A stretch of DNA of 64,000 nt, taken from contig NZ_CP102602.1 in the NCBI RefSeq assembly GCF_024707485.1, forward strand, positions 496,001 through 560,000, read 5' to 3'. Each line of letters begins with the position of its first letter. The stretch's first letter is position 1. This stretch comes from Thermococcus thermotolerans. GTDB lineage: Archaea; Methanobacteriota_B; Thermococci; Thermococcales; Thermococcaceae. This document shows, piece by piece, positions 2,573 to 35,597 of the stretch. The position numbers were made by a program, and so were the translations under genes. The notes beneath the pieces are model-generated. The model ran no database searches and was not told where the DNA came from. It was given only the letters and a program-made list of their open reading frames with translations.

Positions 2573-3430
2573 CTACTCATCCTCTCCGAGCCTTTCGAGG
2601 GCCCTCTGGGCTTTTCTCCGGAAGTCGTCCTTATCGAGGAACTCCCAGTAGTGCTCCCTCGCCGGGAACCTGCCCTCTTTTACTTCCTCGCGGTAATTCT
2701 CAAGGGCAAGTCTTATCATCCCACCGATGTCGGCGTATTTCTTCACGAATGGGGGCGTGTTTTCATAGATTCCCAGGAGGTCGTGCCAGACGAGAACCTG
2801 TCCATCAACGTAGGGCCCGGCACCGATTCCAATGGTAGGAATCGAGACCTCCTCTGTGACGAGCTTGGCCACATCTGCGAGGGTAAACTCAAGGACGACG
2901 GCAAAAGCGCCGGCCTTCTCAAGTGCCCGGGCATCGCGGAGGATCTCCTCAATCTCCTCTTCGGTCTCTCCCATCAGCCGGTAGCCGCCGAGGCGGAGGT
3001 AGCGCTGCGGCGTAAGCCCCGTGTGCCCCATTACCGGGATGCCCATGCGGACCAGCTTCCTCACGAGCTTCCTGTGGTCGTAACCGCCTTCTATCTTCAC
3101 CGCATCCGCCCCGGCCTGAATGAGCCTTACGGCGTTTCTAACGCCCTCGTCGGTATCGATCTCGTAGCTGCCGAAGGGCATATCAGCGAGAACGAGCGCC
3201 CTCTTTACAGCTTTCGCCACAGCCTTGGTGTGGAATACCATCTGATCCATCGTAACGTTCAGCGTGTTTTCCTCGCCGTAGACGACCATTCCCAGTGAAT
3301 CGCCGATGAAGATTATGTCCATGCCTGCTTTGTCAGCTATGAGCGCTGAGGGATAATCGTAAGCGGTTATCATTGCTATCCTTTCCTTCCCCTTCATCTC
3401 GATTATTTTCCGAGGCGTTATCTCCCTCAT
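2573..3430 (-). CDS. panB: 3-methyl-2-oxobutanoate hydroxymethyltransferase
   Basis: Ketopantoate hydroxymethyltransferase makes ketopantoate from 2-oxoisovalerate and methylene-tetrahydro(methano)pterin in coenzyme A synthesis. The 285 residues have the usual length. Family motifs are [36 protein letters not shown] (magnesium-binding Asp), VKIEGG and [11 protein letters not shown], followed by TIGIGAG. The gene leads a two-gene minus-strand operon with the glycosyltransferase and diverges from the VapBC promoter. Confidence 0.95.
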
Positions 3431-33981: not shown

Positions 33982-35079
33982 GTGTTGGACGGTATTCAGG
34001 CAATCGTGTTTGCTGAGGCGTTGATGGTTCTGATAGCTGACTTGGTGGCGGCAGGCTGGATATTCCGTATATATCTCCATAACAGACGGAGATCTGCCCT
34101 GGCCTTTTCTCTTGCATGGGTGTTTGACTTTCTAGCGATCCTCTCGACGGTTCTCACGAACCCGACGTTTCAGATGGTGGGCATGCTCCTTCTTCCGACG
34201 TTCTCTGCTCTCATCTTTTATGGAGCGGTGAAGTTCCTTGAAGAAGAGTCGATAACCGTCAGGTACAGAACTCTCTCAATGCTTGCGGTGATGCCGGTTG
34301 CCTTTATGATATATATGATTGGAGTATACATTTACACCGGGGATGCAGTCTGGTCAGTAACCAGCGCCGCTACCCTTGGCATAACAGGGGTATTCGTAAT
34401 CGCCGGGGGGCTTTTACTCAGGGAAACCGTGGAAATTTACAAAAGTGCCATCAGATACCTCTATATCAGCATCATACTGTTTGGAGTTCACCTAATCCCG
34501 GCGGCACTTTTCGGCAACACCGATTGGTACAAAGCTATAGGATTCACGCTGTCCACGGCCCTCATAATATTCATGGTAGTGGCGATGGTGAAACTAACCT
34601 CCTCGGAGTTCTTTATGCCAAAAGAGAGCAGGGCCGCACAGCCTATTGACCTCAAGCCGGGCGTCATGGTAGTTAACGGGAGGGAGTACCTGAAACTCAA
34701 GGAGAAACTTAAAGACAGGCCAGTTCTGGCCTTCGTCAGGGACGTCACACAGGTTCCTGAGGGGTGGCAGTACTACTTCGTAACAACCATACCGTTCCAG
34801 GGAAGGTTCAAGAACACCATAAATCCGACAAACCTTGCAAGGATGACCGAACTCTCGTACAAGTATCTGGAAGAGTCCGCCCGGATGGGGGAGCAGGGGG
34901 TCATTATAATCGACTGCCTCGAGTACTTGACAGTCTACAACTCCTGGGAGAGCCTCATGAAGTTCCTTTCAAAGCTCAGGGACTTTGTTATAGTCAACAA
35001 GGGCACCCTGATACTCGTTATTGAGAAGGAAAGCCTTGAAAACAGGCTGTATGCCCAGCTCAGGAAGCTCATGGAGTGA
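33982..35079 (+). CDS. Seven-helix membrane protein with DUF835 domain
   Basis: A 365-residue protein. Residues 1-215 form about seven hydrophobic helices (first AIVFAEALMVLIADLVAAGWIF). The C-terminal cytoplasmic part (LKPGVMVVNGREYLKLK... to RNRLYAQLRKLM-like end) is a DUF835 domain, recognisable by FVRDVTQVP, GVIIIDCLEYLTVYN and KGTLILVIEKESL. DUF835 proteins are abundant in Thermococcales and their role is unknown; the layout suggests a membrane sensor. The GTG start follows GGGGTGAAC, which overlaps the stop of the preceding gene. Confidence 0.8.
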   Translation: MLDGIQAIVFAEALMVLIADLVAAGWIFRIYLHNRRRSALAFSLAWVFDFLAILSTVLTNPTFQMVGMLLLPTFSALIFYGAVKFLEEESITVRYRTLSMLAVMPVAFMIYMIGVYIYTGDAVWSVTSAATLGITGVFVIAGGLLLRETVEIYKSAIRYLYISIILFGVHLIPAALFGNTDWYKAIGFTLSTALIIFMVVAMVKLTSSEFFMPKESRAAQPIDLKPGVMVVNGREYLKLKEKLKDRPVLAFVRDVTQVPEGWQYYFVTTIPFQGRFKNTINPTNLARMTELSYKYLEESARMGEQGVIIIDCLEYLTVYNSWESLMKFLSKLRDFVIVNKGTLILVIEKESLENRLYAQLRKLME

Positions 35080-35086
35080 GGACAGC

Positions 35087-35094
35087 TTTATATA
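35087..35094 (+). promoter_or_regulatory. TATA box of the H/ACA RNA gene
   Basis: TTTATATA lies 24-31 bases before position 35118, the first base of the first hairpin of the predicted guide RNA. No protein start follows, so this strong box most likely drives the RNA gene. Confidence 0.7.
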
Positions 35095-35116
35095 CCTCCT
35101 CTTTTCTACCATATAC

Positions 35117-35335
35117 TGCCCCTGCGCGAGGACCCCGGGGAGAATGAACCGGGGGGCGATGCGGGGGCTACAGCTCGGCCTCAGCGAGGTCCCCACGGGA
35201 GGACCTTCCGCGTTACGGAGCACGATGACCGTGGGAAACCCAGGCCGAGCACAGCTGAGGCCCGCCTGGGTTAACCCGCCCGAGATCGCCGTGAGGCACC
35301 GATGGGGGCGGGGGTTACGGGCGGGCCATAGCCAG
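35117..35335 (+). ncRNA. Three-hairpin H/ACA pseudouridylation guide RNA
   Basis: The region is GC-rich, non-coding and folds into three consecutive hairpins, each with lower stem, pocket, upper stem and a 3' ACA/ANA box. H1: 35118-35125 with 35161-35168, upper stem 35133-35138/35149-35154, ACA 35170. H2: 35173-35181 with 35242-35250, upper stem 35192-35198/35229-35235, ACA 35251. H3: 35259-35266 with 35320-35327, upper stem 35275-35281/35306-35312, ATA 35328. In all three the upper stem ends 15 bases before the box, as the family requires. A short T-run follows at 35337. Confidence 0.88.
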
Positions 35336-35420
35336 ATTTTGTCAAAACTTCGACAGCCGTGCAGTCAATATGCCGAAAAGATTTATTAAGAACATGGACA
35401 AGATTCACACGAGTGGTACC

Positions 35421-35597
35421 ATGATAATCGCAGGAAGAAACAAGTGGGTGATACTCCTCAAGTATTATCCCCCATGGCAGGGCTATCCCCCGAGGAAAAG
35501 AAAGAAAAGGAAGACCACGGAAGTCATTGAGGTACTTGAGATGCTCGCAGACCCCGCAGACTTGAGGATATTCCTGAAGACGTCCGCGCCATTCTGA
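35421..35597 (+). CDS. Small basic protein of unknown function
   Basis: A 58-residue protein. A hydrophobic start (NKWVILLKYYPPW) leads into the basic patch PPRKRKKRKTTEV and a C-terminal helix (VIEVLEMLADPADLRIFLK). The ATG is about 36 bases after an ATTTATTAA box and follows a GTGGT element. An in-frame ATG at 35394 would add nine residues. No family is recognised; coding status rests on promoter spacing and amino-acid composition, so it is uncertain. Confidence 0.45.
   Translation: MIIAGRNKWVILLKYYPPWQGYPPRKRKKRKTTEVIEVLEMLADPADLRIFLKTSAPF

Follow-up and report, generated by a model that had tools for sequence, protein, structure and literature searches.

A three-motif H/ACA guide RNA of the HgcG/Pab40/Pf7 family in Thermococcus thermotolerans and two candidate 23S rRNA sites for its second hairpin

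The locus at positions 35118-35330 on the forward strand of the window (the whole analysed stretch of 64,000 nucleotides) is, with a probability of about 0.97, the Thermococcus orthologue of HgcG/Pab40/Pf7, a three-motif H/ACA RNA whose hairpins guide the pseudouridylation of 23S rRNA. The basis of this assignment is homology, fold, stem covariation and complementarity to the organism's own 23S rRNA, while transcription, RNP assembly and the modifications themselves are proposed for this organism from published work on its relatives. From Pyrococcus, this RNA is already known together with its architecture and targets, and the homologue of T. kodakarensis has been named, so the finding has little weight as a discovery.

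Results

The Rfam model RF00064 (HgcG = Pab40 = Pf7) matched the locus along model positions 1-276 of 276 with 199.8 bits and an E value of 1.4e-56, its gathering score being 77. The original prediction, which had recommended a covariance-model search as a check, was correct in the class of the element (a three-hairpin archaeal H/ACA guide RNA), in its strand and in its coordinates; the RNA had already been named. The match spans 35059-35335 and its 5' part overlaps the end of a DUF835 protein gene, which lies 5' of the RNA gene and ends at 35079. Since the P. abyssi Pab40 transcript begins, according to PMC4652768, with the H/ACA motif itself, at its first base, the first ~58 positions of the model probably represent a leader or promoter. 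The predicted TATA box, TTTATATA, is located at 35087-35094 (+), and a TATA-like element ~25-30 bases 5' of the H/ACA motif is conserved in relatives. The predicted downstream T-run is present as a short run at 35341-35344, but among the other relatives listed it is found in one only. On the 3' side, the RNA gene is directly followed by a basic ORF of 75 codons (35370-35597, +) without a Pfam match, and then by a MoeA-type gene on the opposite strand.

HgcG was found in all 25 same-genus genomes in the first search, and in the second one each of the 74 near-complete Thermococcaceae genomes had an orthologue; no matches to HgcG were found in plasmid records. The match in genome G044, at 382332-382604, has the coordinates given for Pab40 of P. 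abyssi in the same paper, and alignment to this locus revealed three H/ACA motifs whose guide pockets are the published ones. In T. onnurineus, HgcG has been detected as RNA (PMC5316973). The genome studied here also contains the other Hgc RNAs HgcE and HgcF, which are known H/ACA guide RNAs (L030, G000:C1:687988-688206; L061, G000:C1:695286-695458), as well as a gene for a Cbf5/TruB-type synthase. Second HgcG-like matches in the genomes G000, G017 and G020 proved to be HgcE (RF00060). A scan for C/D patterns found nothing, and a match to the box C/D RNA sR41 at 3302-3351 was rejected, as it lies far under its gathering score.

The three-hairpin stretch folds with a z-score of -4.05, and none of 200 shuffled sequences folded as well. 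All three hairpins lie on the forward strand. Hairpin 1 (H/ACA motif 1, the orthologue of Pab40.1; 35118-35172) has a lower stem at 35118-35125/35161-35168, an upper stem at 35133-35138/35149-35154, a K-loop and an ACA box at 35170-35172; its 8 lower-stem pairs are followed by an unpaired U before the box. Hairpin 2 (motif 2, the orthologue of Pab40.2; 35173-35253) is built of a lower stem at 35173-35181/35242-35250 and an upper stem at 35192-35198/35229-35235, with ACA at 35251-35253. The corresponding elements of hairpin 3 (motif 3, the orthologue of Pab40.3/Pf7-III; 35259-35330) are located at 35259-35267/35319-35327, 35275-35281/35306-35312 and 35328-35330, the last being ATA, where many relatives have ACA. 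Each hairpin therefore contains the lower stem, bipartite pocket, upper stem and ANA box 14-16 nt away that characterize archaeal box H/ACA RNAs. The distance from upper stem to box is 15 nt in all three cases (14 when a non-canonical closing pair is counted), exactly as predicted. The three tandem hairpins were likewise correctly recognized, but their stems are not perfect, as the lower stems of hairpins 1 and 3 include one U-G pair each. A K-turn or K-loop, as judged by the letters, is also present: UGA with an opposed GA in hairpins 1 and 2 is the predicted L7Ae-binding element, and the putative K-turn of hairpin 3 (about 35301-35305) has UGG in this genome, as in several close relatives, and UGA in most relatives. 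The K-turn of hairpin 2 varies between UGA and UGG likewise, in other species.

In an alignment of 25 orthologues, the 53 stem pairs were formed in 98.6% of cells. Both sides had changed in 12 pairs, as compared with 4.3 in shuffled alignments (0 of 500 reached 12) and with 1-5 pairs when the partners were slid as a control, so that the compensatory changes expected from the original prediction do occur. They include 4 upper-stem pairs of hairpin 1, and 3 lower-stem pairs and 1 upper-stem pair of hairpin 2. The guide pockets are nearly invariant across the family. A structured element devoid of guide function, for example a degenerate copy, is extremely improbable in view of these pockets, the compensatory stem changes and the retention of the RNA in the whole family.

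To each pocket, all uridines of the organism's own 16S and 23S rRNA (673 in total) were scored in the 14-nt fold adopted in published work, with pocket borders set knowing the published folds. The pockets of all three hairpins can pair on either side of an rRNA U-N, with best-site energies of -19.2, -19.2 and -17.6 kcal/mol for hairpins 1, 2 and 3. Shuffling of the pocket letters gave an equally good site in 56, 11 and 9 of 2000 trials, respectively, figures that are somewhat favourable because of the knowledge with which the borders were set.

For hairpin 1, GCUUGC-U-A-CCUCGC (genome 1892321) ranked first of 673 uridines (-19.2; next -7.4; 14-nt fold). The 5' guide GCGAGG (35126-35131, +) pairs with CCUCGC on the 3' side of the target U, and the 3' guide GCGAU (35156-35160, +) with UUGC on its 5' side. 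By far the best site, the predicted target corresponds to P. abyssi U2588 (T. kodakarensis 2592), and the target that had originally been left open thus fits a published one. The pseudouridylation of U2588 is guided by Pab40 in vitro, and psi2592 of T. kodakarensis requires Cbf5, Nop10 and Gar1 in vivo (PMC6138745).

Hairpin 3 pairs with helix 69 at GUAAC-U-A-UAACCC (genome 1891750), where its 5' guide GGGUUA (35268-35273, +) meets UAACCC over 6 bases and its 3' guide GUUAC (35314-35318, +) meets GUAAC. This site ranked second overall and first when the guides were confined to the pockets (-17.6; next -5.2). The helix-69 uridine, P. abyssi U2016 or E. coli 1915, is by its complementarity the predicted target, as proposed originally and published before (PMC2584109, PMC4652768), and U2016 is modified under the guidance of Pab40 in vitro. 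The segment CGUAAC of the original prediction, however, is the E. coli sequence; the target reads GGUAAC here, and for this reason the 3' pocket forms 5 pairs with it. Hairpin 3 was also considered, in a 15-nt fold, as a guide for the orphan P. abyssi pseudouridine at 2585 (genome U1892318), which lacks a known guide. This site came second with -12.7, and it was rejected as weak: its pairing includes a mismatch as well as G-U pairs, and the end of the 5' pocket varies between species.

Outside Thermococcaceae, weak HgcG matches were obtained in G029 (L026) and G032 (L027). In G029 the guides of hairpin 1 are present and the middle hairpin is different, and in G032 hairpins 1 and 3 seem to be kept and the middle hairpin is missing. 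The hairpin 1 guides of G032, GCGAGG and GCAAG, fit GCUUGC-U-A-CCUCGC better. Helix 69 was looked for in G032 and not found, and the rRNA of its congener G036 was used instead; the 5' guide GAGUUA of hairpin 3 fits UAACUC of helix 69 there, the Thermococcus counterpart being GGGUUA/UAACCC. With the rRNA taken from the congener, the guides of G032 independently support the targets proposed for hairpins 1 and 3.

Discussion

The RNA shares with HgcG/Pab40 of P. abyssi the three tandem H/ACA motifs, their order and their guide pockets, and all three published 23S positions exist in the rRNA. In G044 the P. abyssi sites lie 84 and 572 nt apart, which are the distances implied by the published numbers 1932, 2016 and 2588. 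The RNA differs from Pab40 in the upper-stem sequences, in the box of motif 3 (ATA here, ACA there) and in motif 2, whose ninth lower-stem pair exists here but not in Pyrococcus. Pf7 of P. furiosus is alike by description, as it has three hairpins able to guide one modification each and its stem III is directed to the helix-69 site, as hairpin 3 is here. Homologues of motifs 2 and 3 are found in Hvo1/Hvo2 (HP1/HP2) of Haloferax and Af4 of Archaeoglobus, where their assigned targets are the E. coli 2586 equivalent and the helix-69 site, respectively; Haloferax is without a motif 1 homologue and has a long spacer between the hairpins (PMC2584109). By analogy with these systems, L7Ae would bind each hairpin at its K-turn or K-loop and Cbf5-Nop10-Gar1 would bind at the pocket and ACA box, and each bound hairpin would present one 23S uridine for pseudouridylation. 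Hairpin 1 would act on U2588 (P. abyssi numbering), adjoining the peptidyl transferase centre, hairpin 3 on U2016 (E. coli 1915) in helix 69, and hairpin 2 on U1932 and/or the E. coli 2586 equivalent.

The two sites considered for hairpin 2 are almost alike. Its 3' guide AACCC (35237-35241, +) can pair with the GGGUU preceding either uridine, and GGUC of its 5' pocket AGCGAGGTC (35183-35191, +) pairs with GACC at the 2586 equivalent; both elements are identical in the 46 matched loci of relatives. A target near E. coli U2586 had been predicted originally, and it is the best computed fit here: GGGUU-U-A-GACC (genome 1892411) ranks first among all rRNA uridines, U1932 included, with 6+4 pairs and -19.2 kcal/mol, and under a looser rule it reaches -21.8 vs -13.0 for U1932, whose site AGGGUU-U-G-UAC offers the same pairing of the 3' guide (core GGGUU-U) and a weak 3' duplex. 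The literature, however, pairs the Pyrococcus hairpin with U1932: Pab40.2 is assigned to it (L1932) in the text and a footnote of the 2015 paper (PMC4652768), and the 2008 paper that proposed the 2586-equivalent target (PMC2584109) noted that this modification had not been found in P. abyssi.

That hairpin 2 of Thermococcus modifies the 2586 equivalent (genome U1892411) instead of, or besides, U1932 is a real but somewhat doubtful possibility. Apart from the scores, it is favoured by the assignment of the haloarchaeal homologue and the existence of the pseudouridine in H. marismortui, and opposed by the P. abyssi report. The sixth base of the 3' guide bears on it in both directions. An A or G in this place, as Thermococcus has it, could pair with the initial U of UGGGUU and would favour the 2586 equivalent; the U of Pyrococcus could pair with the initial A of AGGGUU at 1932 and would favour that site. 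The argument is weak, however, since the Thermococcus base takes part in the lower stem, and U is also found in the genera g10 and g11, the former of which keeps its stem pair. A switch of the preferred target, from U1932 in Pyrococcus to the 2586 equivalent in Thermococcus, or the guiding of both, appears unlikely, though a switch through one base is conceivable because both sites have the core GGGUU-U.

Both sites are preserved in the Thermococcus rRNA sequences that cover them, with the exception of one contig of G016 (C38, L056). The helix-69 region of this contig is unlike that of all other Thermococcus rRNAs and the other sites are missing; its rRNA is probably foreign, as the assembly is listed at 4% contamination. 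The 5' pockets of hairpins 1 and 2 have GCGAGG in common (35126-35131 and 35184-35189); one hairpin may have been duplicated long ago. Most of this hexamer in hairpin 2 is without obvious pairing at either proposed target, yet it is invariant.

Summarizing, the reading of an H/ACA RNA from raw sequence has been independently confirmed, and the compensation between guide and target outside the family adds support for the target of hairpin 3. One point has been isolated, namely the choice of hairpin 2 in Thermococcus between two near-identical sites. If its target has indeed been switched, this would be a lineage-specific switch in ribosome modification brought about by one base at the border of pocket and stem.
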